64,000 bases of DNA from an uncultured Clostridia bacterium (GTDB taxonomy: Bacteria > Bacillota > Clostridia > Oscillospirales > Ruminococcaceae). The translations under genes and the position numbers were made by a program. The notes under the pieces are model-generated. The model was not told the origin of the DNA, searched no databases, and was given only the letters and a program-made list of their open reading frames with translations. Position 1 is the stretch's first letter; the number at the start of each line of letters is the position of its first letter. Where the stretch lies: positions 1-64,000 of the forward strand of contig CANRKB010000003.1 in assembly GCA_947631115.1 (NCBI GenBank). The letters are read 5' to 3'. Positions 46,765-52,922 of this stretch are shown piece by piece.

Positions 46765-47138
46765 AGCGCATTGTATTAAGCTCTGTTATTTTAGCGGTTA
46801 TGTTCGTAGGTTGTTTTTATTCGGTAAAGGTAACGTGCGATTTTACCGACGAGCTGATAAACCAAATCCACGAAATTGAAGACAACTATGAAAAAGGCAA
46901 CAACGAGCGCGCCGAAAGCGGCGCCGAAAAGCTGAAAGAAGAATGGGAAAAATTCGTCGACCGCTCTATACTGATAAACGACCTCGGTCACGCCGTTGAA
47001 ATAACCTCGTCTATTGCCGAAATACAATCATTTGCCGAAGACAAAGACGACGAAATTTACGCCTCCTGCGACCGAGCAAAAGCGCAGATTGATATGTTCA
47101 GGGATATGCAGGTGCCGTCTGTCTGGAAGATCTTATAG
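46761..47138 (+). CDS. DUF4363 family protein
   Basis: The 125-aa protein has an N-terminal membrane helix (residues 5-22, IVLSSVILAVMFVGCFYSV) and an extracytoplasmic helical domain with DFTDELINQIHEIEDNYEKG. DUF4363 proteins frequently follow DUF421 genes and are of unknown function. The start overlaps the preceding stop as ATGA. Its 3' end overlaps by six bases the end of the convergent GH18 gene fragment. Confidence 0.85.
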   Translation: MKRIVLSSVILAVMFVGCFYSVKVTCDFTDELINQIHEIEDNYEKGNNERAESGAEKLKEEWEKFVDRSILINDLGHAVEITSSIAEIQSFAEDKDDEIYASCDRAKAQIDMFRDMQVPSVWKIL

Positions 47139-47572
47139 CTTTGCGACTTCAAACGCATTAAGCGCAATAAGCCTGTTCGGAACATAACAGCGGTTTATTG
47201 TCCACCAGCTTGCTCCCGCAAGATCGAACTCATCTACAAGTCCGAGCTTTGCGGTTATGCTGCGAGGGTCGTCAAACCAGATCACTTTTCTTACGCCGTT
47301 GTTGGTATAATAAAAATACGGGGTCTGCGTTTTTTCGTCATAAAGTATCTCGGCGTTATTTGCTATGGCTATTTCCGTAGCCTCGGTAAAGCCTATGCTT
47401 CTTGCGGCTGTACCGCGCATATAAGGAAGCGTCCATTCATAGCCGTAATTCGGCATTCCCATTATTATTTTCTGCGAGGGTATCTCGCTTACGGCATAGC
47501 TTAACACTTTTCTTACTTCTTCTATCGGCTGGACGGACATAGGCGCGCTGTAGGTATAGCCCCATTCATACG
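47133..47572 (-). pseudogene. yaaH: 3' part of the interrupted yaaH-type GH18 gene
   Basis: These are the last 143 codons of a LysM-GH18 cortex-lytic N-acetylglucosaminidase. They begin WGYTYSAPMSVQPIEEVRKV and carry the end of the TIM barrel, including MGMPNYGYEWTLPY and the conserved GASWWTINR. A local ATG at 47600 gives an ORF, but it starts in element DNA and lacks a ribosome-binding site, so this piece is not expected to be made alone. It continues the frame that stops at 51548. The two pieces are separated by the recombinase element and joined in frame if that element is deleted. Confidence 0.9.
47564..47572. other. Attachment-core repeat, recombinase-proximal end
   Basis: ATTCATACG is repeated exactly at 51550-51558. 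Read on the minus strand, the next nine bases after the core match in six positions (GGGGCTATAC versus AGGGATAAAC), so the similarity extends into the gene side. This is the expected crossover region of a serine recombinase. Confidence 0.75.
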
Positions 47573-47646
47573 ACTCAACACTATCAGGCTTTCTCAACAA
47601 CCTGATATTTGACTATCAAAACTGTTTGAAATTTGATATTGACTTT

Positions 47647-49215
47647 TTACTTATTCTTTTCCGGCAGTCGCAAATACACTCCGAGGGTAAAGCTGTCGGG
47701 AGCCTTTCTGCGGTTTTCTTCGGCGTTCTTGTCATAAACTATTCGCGCAAAAACGGCTTTCAGCAGTCTATTCTTCCCTTCTATGTCAATATCGCCGTAT
47801 ATCTCTGTCAGGCGTCCTGCGGCAGCAACGGGCTTGCTTTCCGAAAGCTTGTTCATATTTTGAAGTTCCTGGCTTTGCAAGGCTGTTTTTTCTTCAAGCT
47901 CCGATATGCGTTCGCCTACTTCTTTAAGACGTTCTTTAAATGTTTTTTCATCATATATTCCCCGCTCGAAATAGTCGTATATGTTTTCACGCTGTAAGCG
48001 GTATTCGTATATTTTCTGCTTCGTTTCTAAGATCGTATCTTCAATTTCGCTGTTCAGACCAGTATTCTCCGAGGCTGTTTTTTGTATCAAATATCCGCCC
48101 AAACAGACGTTCAGTATTTCAAGCAGCCGTTTTTCCACAAGCTCAAACGGCGAGGAAACGCATTTACAGCCCGCGGTATTGCAGGCAATATACTTTCTTT
48201 TCCCTCCCGCCTCCGAACGATAGGTCATCAATCGTCCGCATTTCGCGCAGTATAAAATCCCCGCCAAAGGATTTCTAAGAGCAGTTTTGTATTTTACGGG
48301 CGCATGACTGTTTTGCGAGATAAGCTCCTGAGCCTTGTAGAAAATATCCGTAGACACTATCGGCTCGTGAAGTCCGTTTGAAATAACAGCGTCTTTTGCC
48401 GTCCGGCGCGTTTTCTTTTTCACTCCGTCGGGGGAAATTTTCTTTTTTACTTTTCTGTATCCGTATCTTATCTTCCCGATATACACGGGATTTTTAAGAA
48501 TGTTCCTTATACCGTATGACGTCCAGCTTTCGCTTTTTCCCTGCGGGGAGATACATAGCTCGTTTAAGCGCTTTGCAACAGCTTTAAACCCGAGGCGCTT
48601 TCTAATGCCGTTAATTTCCGTTCCGTATACATACCACTCGAAAACGGCGCGGACTATTCTCGCCTGTTCTTCTATTATTTCAAGCGAAAATCCTTTCTCG
48701 TTTTCGAGCTTCACTTTTTTATAACCAAACGGCGCTATGCTCCCCAAAAACTTTCCCTCTTTTGCAGATGCCTCGCGTCCCCGTACAAGGCGGCGGTTTG
48801 TCGCGGTAAATTCGCGGCGCGCCATAAACAATCCGAACTCAAAATATTCTTCGTCAAACTCGTTTGTCGGGTCGTAAGTTTTTATCGGGGTGATTATCTT
48901 TGTTCCCGTGGCTTTGAACATCTGCGCTACAAGACCCTGATCCATTGTATCGCCTCTCGCAAGCCTCTCTATCTCCGTTACAAGCACGCCGTCCCACACT
49001 CCCGCGCCTACCTCGGACAAAAGCTTTTGCATCTTGGGACGGGCTGAAACGGTTTCACCCGAAACTATTTCCTCATAAACCGCGCCTATTGTTATGTTCA
49101 TCTTTTGCGCAAGCTCCAGCAAAGCGGTCTTATGCCGCAATAGCGTTTCTCCCTCGCCGTGAGCTTCGGCTTCAATATCGGCGCGGGATTTTCTAAGGTA
49201 TATTGCACATAACAT
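47647..49215 (-). CDS. Large serine recombinase (site-specific integrase/excisionase)
   Basis: The 522-aa protein has the N-terminal resolvase domain (YLRKSRAD with catalytic Ser10; EIERLARGD; EYFEFGLFMARREF), the recombinase domain (GSIAPFGYKKV; KNPVYIGKIRYG), a zinc ribbon (CAKCGRLM and CNTAGC) and a coiled-coil C terminus. It cuts att sites with a phosphoserine link and is integrase-like in length. GAGGTG precedes the ATG at 49215; a GTG six bases upstream is not needed. It ends 74 bases from the attachment core. It almost certainly moved this element and could remove it again. Confidence 0.95.
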   Translation of the reverse strand: MLCAIYLRKSRADIEAEAHGEGETLLRHKTALLELAQKMNITIGAVYEEIVSGETVSARPKMQKLLSEVGAGVWDGVLVTEIERLARGDTMDQGLVAQMFKATGTKIITPIKTYDPTNEFDEEYFEFGLFMARREFTATNRRLVRGREASAKEGKFLGSIAPFGYKKVKLENEKGFSLEIIEEQARIVRAVFEWYVYGTEINGIRKRLGFKAVAKRLNELCISPQGKSESWTSYGIRNILKNPVYIGKIRYGYRKVKKKISPDGVKKKTRRTAKDAVISNGLHEPIVSTDIFYKAQELISQNSHAPVKYKTALRNPLAGILYCAKCGRLMTYRSEAGGKRKYIACNTAGCKCVSSPFELVEKRLLEILNVCLGGYLIQKTASENTGLNSEIEDTILETKQKIYEYRLQRENIYDYFERGIYDEKTFKERLKEVGERISELEEKTALQSQELQNMNKLSESKPVAAAGRLTEIYGDIDIEGKNRLLKAVFARIVYDKNAEENRRKAPDSFTLGVYLRLPEKNK

Positions 49216-49325
49216 AATCACACCTCGTTTTAAGATAGTGTTAAATTATATTCTGCATACTGCTTGTAAAAGCACTGCCGCCGTGCCCTAAAACGGGCGC
49301 GGCGGCAGTTTTATTTTCAAAAACA

Positions 49326-50216
49326 TTACGGTTTGCATATCTTGCAGGGGCTGTATCCTTGGGCTATTGCGCTTTCGCGGCTGTCGCAAGTGCCGTAATT
49401 TTCGGGCTTTATCTTCTTTGCCGAACTGCAGTCGGGACGGTGGAACTTCTTTGTGGAAGTGTTAAGAACGTATGTAACTAAAGTCGGGTCTTCCTCGGGA
49501 ACACTGTTCTCGCTCGGAACAGGAGATCTGTCAGGTACTTCTGAAGATACTTGCGGCTCGGGCGGACTCGGGGTTTCCAATGAACTTTCGGGAGCCTGCG
49601 AACTCGCGGGAGCAGAAGAACTTATCTCTTCAGAAGAACTTTCAACCGTTGAAGGACTTTCAACCGTTGAAGAACTGCTGCTTGTTTCATCTTCGGGCGG
49701 CTCAGATGAAGAACTCGACTGTTCGGACTCGCTTTGCTGAGAACTAAATTCGCTTTGGGAAGCAATTTCGTTCTTCGCGGGGAGGGTAACGGAAGATTTA
49801 TGATCAACTGCAATGACCGAGCAATTTTTCAGGGTAACAATTCCCGACGCAAAGGAATCGAGTTCTCCCTTTATTATAACAATGTCGTTTACGCTCACGC
49901 CGTCAAGGTCGTCAAGACCTCCGAATATACAAACCACTCTGTCTTTTTCGTTTTGACTGCCAAGCAAATCTCCGATATTAAAAACAATGCTGTTGGAAAG
50001 AAGCTCGTCCTCTTGTATTACGCCGAATACGGTAAAGATTTCGCCGCTGTCGCGGAGACTTCCGTCCTGAAACAAGCCGTAAAAGTCGTAAAGATTATAA
50101 ATGTTTTCGTCTGTAACGCTTCCGTTTTGCGGCGTATACTTGGGAGTTGAACCGTCTCCACACCCGCAGAGCAGTACAACACAAAGCAAAACCGAGAAGA
50201 ACATCTTCCACTTCAT
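49326..50216 (-). CDS. Serine-rich lipoprotein with Ada-type cysteine domain
   Basis: The 296-aa protein is secreted and lipid-anchored (VVLLCGC lipobox). Residues 40-140 look OB-like (FTVFGVIQ, VCIFGGLDD, VIIKGELDSF). A linker of about 80 residues is made of Ser, Glu and Pro repeats. The last 45 residues form the small domain TKKFHRPDCSSAKKIKPEN...GYSPCKICKP, which has Cys-x(n)-CxxC spacing like Ada-type metal-binding domains found in secreted nucleases and hypothetical Firmicutes proteins. It is the second gene of the element, with the same orientation as the recombinase. Function is unknown; it may be cargo. Confidence 0.75.
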   Translation of the reverse strand: MKWKMFFSVLLCVVLLCGCGDGSTPKYTPQNGSVTDENIYNLYDFYGLFQDGSLRDSGEIFTVFGVIQEDELLSNSIVFNIGDLLGSQNEKDRVVCIFGGLDDLDGVSVNDIVIIKGELDSFASGIVTLKNCSVIAVDHKSSVTLPAKNEIASQSEFSSQQSESEQSSSSSEPPEDETSSSSSTVESPSTVESSSEEISSSAPASSQAPESSLETPSPPEPQVSSEVPDRSPVPSENSVPEEDPTLVTYVLNTSTKKFHRPDCSSAKKIKPENYGTCDSRESAIAQGYSPCKICKP

Positions 50217-50305
50217 TTATGCTATTCTCCTTTAATAATTGTTTTACGAATAATTACAGGTAAATTTCAGAGCTTATGCGAATAAAATAAACCGAGGTGA
50301 TATAA

Positions 50306-50512
50306 ATGCCGCGTACAACTCCGAAAGAAATAATTGAAACAGCTCCGAATATCATAAGGCACATATATGACGAAAACGGCAGAGAAACAGGTTTTATTGC
50401 CGATAATTTCGCCGTTTGCACCGACGAGGAGACAGAGGATATACTAAAGCAAATAGGAAAGCTATGGGGAAACTCCTGCACGGATAATGGTGAAAAAGAT
50501 GAGGAGGTTTAA
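50306..50512 (+). CDS. Small protein of unknown function, 68 aa
   Basis: GAGGTGA lies seven bases before the ATG and the frame runs 68 codons. The peptide starts MPRTTPKEIIETAPNIIRH and is acidic at its end (GEKDEEV). It is the only gene of the element on the plus strand. It has no membrane segment. Serine integrases need a small directionality factor for excision; those are varied and cannot be recognised by sequence, so this is a candidate by position and size only. Confidence 0.55.
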   Translation: MPRTTPKEIIETAPNIIRHIYDENGRETGFIADNFAVCTDEETEDILKQIGKLWGNSCTDNGEKDEEV

Positions 50513-50523
50513 AACATTCGCTT

Positions 50524-51414
50524 TTATTCAAATGAAACAAGCTCCGCTGTTAAAGTACCGCCCGGACCTAACTTATATTTATATTTTAAATCCTTTACTT
50601 TTATTTTTAATTTTGCGGATTCTCCTCTTTCAACTACCCCCGAAAAGTCATCAGCCATTTCTTCATAATTTCCGAGCCTTATTTCCGCATAGTCTCCGAG
50701 AAATGCTAATTTAGATTTTTCATCTGTCCACCAGGTTCCTACAAAGTCAAATTCGCCAATAGGAACAGGAAAATTAGTTGATTTAGCAGAATCCACAAAG
50801 AATATAATTTCGTCCTGATAACTGCCATAAACATCCTCGGGAACACGGTATACTATACCCTCAAGCGTAAGCTCTCCCTCAAATTCTATGTTAGATTGGC
50901 TAAAGCCGCCGTGATAAAGATAAATATCCGCGCTTTTTACGGTAAGACCGTTTTCGAGCTTATCACCCGCTTTTACTTTGAAAAAACCGTCGGCTTCTTG
51001 CGACCAATCAAAGTCAACGCTGAAGTGCATCGTATCCCAATTTATAAGATCGGGGTCATCAATTGTATTATAGAAAATCGGCTTTGTATAACGGATATAT
51101 GAATGTTCAAACTTATACATATCATCTTCCGTAAGCTCCCCGTCAGTAATATTCAGAACTTCACCGTTTGGCGCTTTAAAAGAATTCTCATCCGGTTCTT
51201 CGGGCGGGTTTTCCGCAGGAGAACTGCTTTCATCAGCTGAAGAACTTTCCGTTTCAGAAGAACTCTCTGATGTTGAAGAACTATTGTCGGAAACGGAAGA
51301 GCTTGAAGAACTTTCAACGGAGCCGGTGTTCATGTCAGAGCTGTTTTCCTTGGTCGTGTCGCAGGCGGAAAGTAAAAGTGCGCTGAGTAAAGAAATTGCA
51401 ATAATTTTTTTCAT
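50524..51414 (-). CDS. Serine-rich lipoprotein of unknown function
   Basis: The 296-aa protein begins MKKIIAISLLSALLLSAC, a signal peptide with lipobox. A linker of about 60 residues of Ser/Glu/Asp repeats is followed by a beta-rich domain of about 210 residues (FEHSYIRYTKPIFYN; FDWSQEADGFFKVKAGDKL; YRVPEDVYGSYQDEI). I recognise no family. AAGGAG precedes the ATG at 51414. It is the gene nearest the second junction, with its own promoter and a palindrome over the start site. The Ser-rich linker resembles the other lipoprotein of the element, so the two may be paralogues in style. Confidence 0.7.
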   Translation of the reverse strand: MKKIIAISLLSALLLSACDTTKENSSDMNTGSVESSSSSSVSDNSSSTSESSSETESSSADESSSPAENPPEEPDENSFKAPNGEVLNITDGELTEDDMYKFEHSYIRYTKPIFYNTIDDPDLINWDTMHFSVDFDWSQEADGFFKVKAGDKLENGLTVKSADIYLYHGGFSQSNIEFEGELTLEGIVYRVPEDVYGSYQDEIIFFVDSAKSTNFPVPIGEFDFVGTWWTDEKSKLAFLGDYAEIRLGNYEEMADDFSGVVERGESAKLKIKVKDLKYKYKLGPGGTLTAELVSFE

Positions 51415-51441
51415 AGTGTAACACTCCTTATTCAATTTTTT

Positions 51442-51456
51442 AGGACAGTTTGTCCT
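51442..51456 (-). promoter_or_regulatory. Palindrome over the lipoprotein transcription start
   Basis: AGGACAGTTTGTCCT is a perfect 6-3-6 palindrome at the expected start of transcription, just after the -10 box. It is a good operator candidate; the regulator is not in the window as far as I can tell. Confidence 0.4.
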
Positions 51457-51463
51457 TATCCAA

Positions 51464-51492
51464 ATTATAGCACAATGCTCTTAAAATGTCTA
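51464..51492 (-). promoter_or_regulatory. Promoter of the second lipoprotein gene
   Basis: On the minus strand, TAGACA (51487-51492) and TATAAT (51464-51469) are 17 bases apart, inside the element. Confidence 0.65.
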
Positions 51493-51547
51493 TAAGTTTT
51501 ACAAAAATGTAAAGAATTTTTATGCTCTTTTTTTATCATGTTTATCC

Positions 51548-52390
51548 CTATTCATACGTCATGATCACCACATAGTCGGCATATTGTCCCTGGACGGGAT
51601 AATCGTGAGATTCGTAGAGTATACCGGGCTGGTCGGCGCGGTATTTGGGCGCTACGGCGGTTATAAGCACATAATTTCCTCTATGAAGTCTGTCGGAAAG
51701 CTCGCCGAGAAACTCGTTGTATACCTCCTTATCCTCGGGCGCAATGTATTCCATATCGAGATTAACTCCGTAATATCCCTTTCTGTCAAGCTCGTACATT
51801 ATAGAATCTATAAGCCTGCGCGTTGAAGAGCTGTCCGAAAGTATCTGCGAAAGCACTTCCGTAGAAAATGTTCCGTCATAAATATTCGTGACTACCATAA
51901 GCGGCATGACCGCGCTTCTCACGGCGCTGTAAATAAGTTCTTCATCGGGCGGCGAAATAAGCTCTCCGCTGGGCGTTACGGAATATGAAAACGGGCTTAA
52001 AAACGTAAGAAACGGCACCGCGCAATTAAGCGCTGTTTCGGTTATGTTGGAATAAGCGTATCCGTTTGTAACGGCGGGTCTTCTTATAACATTGCTTGAA
52101 ACGGGGATATTAACCGTTTCTCCTATTCTCAGAGCTATGGGATTTATATCGGGGTTTGCGTTTAAAAGTTCTTCAAGAGGTACGTTAAACTCCTGCGCTA
52201 TAGAATAAAGCGTCTGGTTTTCCTGTACTCTGTATCTCATTATATCCGACATAATAACAAGGCTTTGACCTACGGCAAGCCCGCTGTTAATGCGCAAATT
52301 GTTGTCCGCCGCTATCCTGCCCGCAGGAATGGCAAACATCTGCGCCAGACCGCTCAAAGTATCTCCGCTTTTTACAGTGTAAATATACAT
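51548..52390 (-). CDS. yaaH: 5' part of interrupted yaaH: LysM-LysM-GH18 cortex hydrolase
   Basis: The 280-aa piece starts MYIYTVKSGDTLSGLAQMF (LysM 1), has a second LysM (YRVQENQTLYSIAQEFNVP) and then the start of a GH18 TIM barrel with the catalytic acid in GVNLDMEY and VVIMTYE at the end. YaaH/SleL-type enzymes bind peptidoglycan through LysM and cut spore cortex. GGAGGTG precedes the ATG. The frame stops at TAG formed by element DNA. As it stands the barrel lacks its last three beta-strands, so the truncated protein should not be a normal hydrolase. Fusion across the element gives a full-length enzyme. The amidase gene lies 16 bases upstream. Confidence 0.9.
   Translation of the reverse strand: MYIYTVKSGDTLSGLAQMFAIPAGRIAADNNLRINSGLAVGQSLVIMSDIMRYRVQENQTLYSIAQEFNVPLEELLNANPDINPIALRIGETVNIPVSSNVIRRPAVTNGYAYSNITETALNCAVPFLTFLSPFSYSVTPSGELISPPDEELIYSAVRSAVMPLMVVTNIYDGTFSTEVLSQILSDSSSTRRLIDSIMYELDRKGYYGVNLDMEYIAPEDKEVYNEFLGELSDRLHRGNYVLITAVAPKYRADQPGILYESHDYPVQGQYADYVVIMTYE
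51550..51558. other. Attachment-core repeat, lipoprotein-side end
   Basis: This is the second copy of ATTCATACG; see the first copy at 47564-47572. Here the bases after the core on the minus strand create the TAG stop. Confidence 0.75.
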
Positions 52391-52406: not shown

Positions 52407-52922
52407 TTAGTTGTCAACGGAAATTTCTTTTCTTGCTCCTATTATGTGTATAGGGAAAATATCCGCATAATTATAAGTGGACAGTCTTCTGTTGCGCGAA
52501 TCGTCCGTATGCGCGCAGACAAAAATGTTCTGAGGTATTTTCGGATATAAGACCGACGACACAATTACCGTATGATAAAATCTTCCCTGAGAGTTTATAA
52601 GCTGTATTATATCGCCGCGCTGTATTTCGGACAGCGTGCTTTCTTCGCCGTAAACTCCCGTACCCCTGTTTGAAAGCAGAAATTCTCGGAGAAAGTTTAC
52701 TCCCGTCCAGGCGGGCGCTCTGTCGTCTGAGTTTATATAATACCAGCCGTTTTCCTGTGAATAATTCATCACCCCGCAGCCCGCATACAAACACTGTGAA
52801 ATATAATTTGTACAATCCCCGCCTATGTCCGAAAAATCATAAAACCGCGGGTTTCTCGCAAACGCCCAGTTCAGCGCATAGATTACCGCGGCTCGTCGGT
52901 CGTAAACCGTTTCTATAAGCAT
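52407..52922 (-). CDS. Amidase_6-type putative amidase
   Basis: The 171-aa protein belongs to the NlpC/P60-like putative amidase family (amidase domain). YDRRAAVIYALNWAFARNP and GGDCTNYISQCLYAG contain the probable catalytic Cys, and RGDIIQL and YHTVIVSS hold the following conserved residues. No signal peptide is present, as in other sporulation-related members. GAGGTG lies before the ATG at 52922, which I prefer to an earlier GTG. The GH18 gene follows 16 bases later, so both act on peptidoglycan from one transcript. Confidence 0.8.
   Translation of the reverse strand: MLIETVYDRRAAVIYALNWAFARNPRFYDFSDIGGDCTNYISQCLYAGCGVMNYSQENGWYYINSDDRAPAWTGVNFLREFLLSNRGTGVYGEESTLSEIQRGDIIQLINSQGRFYHTVIVSSVLYPKIPQNIFVCAHTDDSRNRRLSTYNYADIFPIHIIGARKEISVDN

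Follow-up and report, generated by a model that had tools for sequence, protein, structure and literature searches.

A serine recombinase element that splits a yaaH/sleL-type gene of an uncultured Clostridia bacterium and could be excised to restore it

Results and discussion

A recombinase-encoding element lies within a yaaH/sleL-type gene

In a 64,000-nucleotide stretch of contig CANRKB010000003.1 from an uncultured Clostridia bacterium of the Ruminococcaceae (assembly GCA_947631115.1; the whole stretch is referred to as the window and its source genome as G000), an element of 3,986 bp encoding a large serine recombinase splits a yaaH/sleL-type gene, whose product is a predicted cortex-lytic enzyme by its homology to SleL/YaaH. 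We think it probable that this is a skin-type gene-intervening element, which is likely excised in the mother cell with the aid of an element-encoded 68-aa protein, restoring the enzyme. In the proposed mechanism, the recombinase would act within the codons of the conserved MTYEWGY motif and excise the element, with the predicted 68-aa protein directing excision; the event would be timed to the mother cell of sporulating cells, and the restored gene would encode the whole predicted enzyme. Cortex hydrolysis in this strain would then depend on programmed excision. An earlier note on this DNA had claimed that a YaaH-type gene is split by the element and would be restored by its precise removal. 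This claim is strongly supported by unsplit relatives, symmetric attachment sites, an intact recombinase, and strong purifying selection on the C-terminal half (C half). The source genome (2.06 Mb, 60 contigs, 96% complete) encodes Spo0A and SpoIVA, and SpoIVA was found in 41 of the 43 genomes of the genus.

The break (MTYE|WGY) falls inside the GH18 domain: the N-terminal half (N half) covers positions 79–181 of the 317-position Pfam model and the C half positions 211–315. Both junctions carry a 19-nt direct repeat, 84% identical, with an exact 9-nt core, ATTCATACG, and the spacing of the repeats equals the length of the element. Joining the halves across this core produced an open frame of 423 aa. 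The shared junction sequence and the frame expected from removal of 3,986 bp, both put forward in the earlier note, were thus borne out, as was its description of a full-length serine recombinase: the protein combines Resolvase, Recombinase, and Zn-ribbon domains, its reading frame is free of internal stops, and it matches the phrog_95 integrase and the SPbeta integrase YokA (E 1.5e-52; PDB 9dxh). The joined YaaH protein aligned over its whole length, including the junction, with PDB 4S3J, "Cortical-lytic enzyme" (E 3.6e-82), and PDB 4S3K, "Spore germination protein YaaH" (E 1.7e-81), and its domain order, LysM–LysM–GH18, is colinear with that of the solved SleL/YaaH. Alternatively, each half could function by itself, the first as a LysM binding protein and the second as an independent C-terminal polypeptide, and a TTG-start open reading frame at 47600-47133 does cover the C half in the window. 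However, the cut falls within a single domain, 22 relatives carry one full-length gene, and the element sequence preceding the C half varies between element groups; we regard this explanation as highly improbable.

Split and unsplit alleles occur among relatives

When the joined protein was searched in the 43 genomes of the genus, the gene was unsplit at the junction in 24 (22 full-length genes, plus G025 and G040, in which a partial gene at a contig edge crosses the junction). The refuting condition named in the earlier note, the lack of an intact allele in every relative, was thus not borne out. The gene was split in 17 genomes: 16 had both halves as separate matches breaking near residue 281, and G030, counted as split, had the C half alone, broken at the same point. 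The remaining two, G006 (a 54-residue match) and G029 (no match), were uninformative. The halves are separated by ~4 kb in G000, G031, G035, and G041, 4.5 kb in G020, 45.5 kb in G005, and 55 kb in G022, and lie on separate contigs in the other split genomes. After joining, the frame was open and 422–425 aa long in 15 of the 16 junction pairs (423 aa in G003, joined at the AC codon). The flanks of the split G003 gene aligned with the intact gene of G028, a near neighbor on the YaaH tree, and met within 7 nt. In G033, the last 43 residues of YaaH are encoded a second time, in a short copy ~0.4 kb past the C half (L082, G033:C21, 1941-2069).

Outside the genus, the same break with both halves present was found in 7 of the 42 matched genomes of a family sample and in 9 of the 114 genomes of an order sample, in one of which (G414) it may be a contig break. 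With G104 belonging to both samples, these make 15 split genomes from up to five families; the count takes in genomes with both halves, further genomes with one half alone being left aside, and calls the split from the position of the break rather than from the junction sequence.

Attachment sites and recombinases fall into two matching groups

Comparison of the 16 junction pairs divided them into two groups. In group A (G000, G031, G035, G041, G022, G033, G032, and G001), the in-frame shared sequence narrowed to GA(A/G)T, starting at the E codon of MTYE; in group B (G020, G005, G014, G039, G003, G023, G010, and G015), it narrowed to the AC of the T codon in WGYTY, and G003 shared just these two bases in frame. 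The attachment site of a free element (attP) recognized by a serine recombinase is expected to have arms symmetric about a central dinucleotide. GA was taken as the center for group A (in part because G022 and G041 are symmetric about it) and AC for group B, which places the two centers 12 bp apart. With 15-nt arms, the summed symmetry was then 72/120 in group A and 79/120 in group B, whereas the sums at 16 other offsets did not exceed 45 and 43, respectively. In G022, 22 of 25 arm positions matched. Inverted arms about the central dinucleotide were thus found for the group and were weak in the window, where the window's own center nonetheless scored best among 21 offsets in the 15-nt test. 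A chance origin of the 9-nt match was rejected because the same break recurs in 15 other genomes with two halves and because attP symmetry peaks at the predicted crossover points.

Recombinase matches (E<=1e-60) numbered 24 in the 43 genomes: 15 lie at a split yaaH, 7 at a split asparagine-synthase gene, 1 at a split cotJC, and 1 is an unplaced fragment (G023:C257). The 3′ end of the recombinase gene pointed to the junction in all 15 yaaH cases, ten of which had it next to the C half and five next to the N half; in G030, no related recombinase was found in the 4.4 kb adjoining the C half, up to the contig end. In a tree of the 23 full recombinases, group A (8), group B (7), and the asparagine-synthase group (7) each formed one side of a branch, with supports of 100/99, 100/99, and 92/94, respectively, and recombinase clade and crossover point matched in 15 of 15 yaaH recombinases. 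Across a tree built from 38 YaaH proteins, there were 13 changes of state (intact, A, or B), a change being a gain or a loss, and well-supported branches forced at least 5 changes for A and at least 7 for B. Judged from these alleles and trees, the yaaH site is a recurrent hot-spot for two recombinase clades and whole prophages, and it has been entered many times.

The 55-kb element of G022 carries genes for terminase, portal, head protease, major head, tail sheath, tape measure, and baseplate proteins, and the 45.6-kb element of G005 carries primase, terminase, portal, major head, and tape measure genes. The window lineage keeps the recombinase gene, the 68-aa gene, and two genes for lipoprotein-like proteins, and the window element seems to have arisen by reduction within a lineage whose members in relatives are complete temperate phages. 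Elsewhere in the source genome, three consecutive resolvase-type recombinase genes were seen (G000:C6 72347-76000; L116 4348-8001).

The severed C half is conserved

The element is common to G000, G031, G035, and G041, at the same place and in the same orientation. With 12 codons on each side of the junction left out, pairs among these four species differed by 0–1 nonsynonymous versus 18–28 synonymous substitutions in the C half and by 2–6 versus 31–42 in the N half, which shows purifying selection on both, strong in the C half. Summed over the pairs G000–G041 and G031–G035, which have one very short branch in common on the protein tree, the C half showed 1 nonsynonymous versus 43 synonymous substitutions (P ~2e-16 with an assumed neutral nonsynonymous share of 0.6). 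The synonymous divergence (dS) of the recombinase gene (0.29–0.45) was similar to or above that of yaaH (0.19–0.43), exceeding that of both halves in 5 of 6 pairs, and the ratio of nonsynonymous to synonymous divergence (dN/dS) was 0.11–0.18 for the recombinase and 0.18–0.31 for the 68-aa gene, the latter from few changes. In these comparisons, the C half, severed from its own start codon, has hardly changed over the time in which element and hosts diverged together. Since the C half is nearly invariant without a start of its own, regular rebuilding of the whole gene would be the simplest reason.

These observations bear on two other explanations. The site could be an ordinary temperate-phage hot-spot in which phages and their remnants occupy a dispensable gene that is lost there, with no developmental excision. 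The prophages of G022 and G005, the phage-type integrase, the 13 state changes on the YaaH tree, the lack of a sporulation promoter in common by three simple patterns, and a frameshift in G001 all fit this explanation; the near absence of amino-acid changes in the C half of four species with a common insertion, the open joined frames in 15 of 16 pairs, and the selection on the recombinase and the small protein in reduced elements speak against it, and we consider it unlikely. Alternatively, the split could be a population polymorphism, with spontaneous excision and re-integration or transfer, selection acting in element-free cells, and no tie to sporulation. The many independent insertions and the proximity of split G003 to intact G028, with flanks meeting within 7 nt, would agree with this. 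However, the element occupies one position, in one orientation, in all four sampled close species; this shared placement, together with an element divergence similar to or above that of the host, suggests long residence. A polymorphism of this kind therefore seems rather improbable.

A 68-aa protein is a candidate excision factor

The 68-aa protein was present in all eight group A elements and in one asparagine-synthase element, and the reduced 4-kb elements retain both its gene and the recombinase gene. We also examined IMG/VR loci encoding a related recombinase; of 115 such loci, 80 were retained, some of them near copies. An iterated profile, trained in part on the IMG/VR matches themselves, detected the protein in 61 of the 80 loci, 57 of them at E<1e-9. 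Its gene was on the strand opposite to the recombinase in 61 of 61 cases and upstream of it in 60 of 61, at a median of 2.0 kb, and the profile gave no match in 35 intact-yaaH loci (0.23 Mb versus 0.88 Mb of viral sequence, with some genomes repeated). In group B, 6 of 8 elements (G014, G039, G020, G015, G010, and G005) encode a different small protein, the other two elements being scarcely covered, and this protein is distantly related to the 68-aa protein (hhalign probability 91%).

The window 68-aa protein matched no NCBIfam, PHROG, or Pfam family, and 22 members of its family gave only scattered weak Pfam matches, for one member each (best E 0.0065). Its best PDB sequence match, to a repeat-like protein (E 0.002), was not credible. 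An AlphaFold model had a beta-beta-alpha arrangement (predicted local distance difference test score 76, predicted template modeling score 0.34), for which Foldseek returned no structural match (best E 1.5), and no similarity to SprB, the helper protein of the SPbeta system, was detected. From its conservation, company, and place, the 68-aa protein is the best candidate for the excision (directionality) factor.

Observations that weigh against programmed excision

Several observations weigh against mother-cell excision as the explanation. The attP arms of the window are the weakest of the 16 (12 of 25 positions), and its C-side arm has diverged from that of three close relatives. Three simple patterns for sigma-E/K-like promoters were scanned against the regions preceding the 68-aa gene (8 elements), the recombinase gene (4), and the amidase–yaaH genes (4); no shared promoter was found, with single matches only in G033 and G031. 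The free attP of the G022 prophage, searched as one pattern, had no match in IMG/VR. The C half of G001 is frameshifted, and selection on the halves could instead act in uninterrupted cells of the same populations. Finally, the late mother-cell program of the source genome is uncertain because its sigK-like gene lies in two permuted pieces, 46.6 kb apart, with the C piece 5′ of the N piece and no shared core found at the breaks. The same permuted two-piece gene occurs in G031, G035, and G038.

Two side observations were made. In the promoter alignment, a TGCATA box was common to the four amidase upstream regions. Separate copies of sigK-type C-terminal halves were present in G009 (at least 4; C7 and C19) and G019 (at least 7; C13, C41, and C5).

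Table 1. Positions of the split gene, the element, and neighboring or related features. Positions are those of the window unless a contig is given.
Feature	Position	Strand	Remarks
C half, yaaH/sleL-type gene	47133..47564	-	Begins WGYTYS; remainder of GH18
Attachment repeat, C-half end of element	47554..47572	-	Inferred central dinucleotide GA at 47567-47566
Large serine recombinase	47647..49215	-	522 aa; 3′ end facing C-half junction
Lipoprotein-like protein	49326..50216	-	C-terminal Ada_Zn_binding domain
68-aa protein	50306..50512	+	Candidate recombination directionality factor (role inferred)
Lipoprotein-like protein	50524..51414	-	No Pfam match
Attachment repeat, N-half end of element	51540..51558	-	Inferred central dinucleotide GA at 51553-51552
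N half, yaaH/sleL-type gene	51548..52390	-	280 aa; two LysM and first part of GH18; ends MTYE-TAG
Amidase_6 protein	52407..52922	-	Host neighbor upstream of N half, outside element
sigK-like pieces, window genome (L206, L207)	G000:C2 120816-121169 and 167735-168106	-	

Relation to known gene-intervening elements

The comparison with published systems draws on excerpts of open-licence papers. In these, excision in sporulation is described for sigK, spsM, spoVFB, gerE, and yabG (PMC10747680, PMC5595907, PMC5025042, PMC4191935). Like skin in sigK of Bacillus subtilis and Clostridioides difficile, the yaaH element encodes its own serine recombinase and splits a spore gene whose frame is restorable by excision; in C. 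difficile, skinCd has the recombinase CD1231 and needs the small directionality factor CD1234 (PMC5025042). Unlike skin, it targets a yaaH/sleL-type gene rather than sigK, ranges in size down to 4 kb, involves two recombinase clades, each with its own crossover point in the gene, and is described here from its sequence. SPbeta, which is excised from spsM in sporulation (PMC4191935), has the recombinase SprA (YokA), to which the yaaH recombinase is homologous (~30% identity), and complete phages occupy the yaaH site in G022 and G005; in contrast to SPbeta, the target is another gene and the candidate helper is without detectable similarity to SprB (YotN). The gene-intervening elements gin in gerE of Bacillus cereus, vfbin in spoVFB, and yin in yabG (PMC5595907, PMC10747680) likewise intervene in spore genes, and gin has a shared core, also of 9 bp, with an inverted repeat (PMC5595907, PMC10747680). 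Whereas each of these is reported in few strains in the excerpts, the split in yaaH was seen in 17 of the 43 genomes of this genus and in a further 15 genomes from beyond it. By sequence, the yaaH element resembles skin, SPbeta, vfbin, gin, and yin, and its recurrence appears broader than that of those single loci.

Searches of the open-licence literature and the excerpts from it gave no description of yaaH/sleL, asparagine synthase, or cotJC as an excision-restored sporulation gene, and the earlier note likewise named sigK, spsM, and spoVFB, not yaaH/sleL, as known targets; the excerpted text of a large-serine-recombinase survey mentions "sporulation" a single time, in a reference (PMC10083194). 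If our reading is correct, genes used only in the doomed mother cell may be a general safe harbor for phages, a view based on the cortex-hydrolase target, the many entries, the two clades 12 bp apart, and the occurrence in several families of one order. The yaaH site would also offer many natural replicates of the transition from complete phage to 4-kb element, and the 68-aa protein would represent a candidate excision-factor family for a group of serine integrases.

Related recombinases lie beside other split genes

A related recombinase abuts an asparagine-synthase gene split at VALSGECADE|IFGGYPW, near profile position 130, in seven genomes of the genus (L097-L103: G003, G012, G011, G004, G027, G020, and G010). 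In six other genomes, a second break was found near Pfam position 223, and the G003 gene may be broken at both places. B. subtilis asnO, a possible counterpart of the split gene, is controlled by sigma-E, SpoIIID, and sigma-K (PMC517825). In G021, cotJC is split beside a related recombinase, with the halves 58 kb apart (L104, G021:C1). A cotJC-like gene adjoins the prophage phi027 in C. difficile and is not described as an excision target in the excerpt of that report (PMC11222575).

We tentatively propose, with rather less confidence than for yaaH itself, that one phage-integrase family may be specialized in mother-cell spore genes, namely yaaH (two sites), asparagine synthase, cotJC, and sigK, and that several phages or remnants might be excised as one program through a shared family of ~60-aa factors that includes the 68-aa protein. 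Target remnants next to the recombinase were also sought in the 54 IMG/VR loci that extend at least 150 nt past it, several of which are near duplicates. Eight carried a yaaH remnant, one an asparagine-synthase remnant, and one a sigma-70 region-2 gene, read as sigK; 36 had no assigned target. The other eight carried a split cotJC-like manganese-catalase gene (L118, L132, L136, L151, L156, L167, L174, and L180). Manganese catalases have been counted as phage genes in 196 gut-virome genomes, according to the accessible part of that study (PMC8008677), and these might in part be host remnants of split cotJC-like genes.

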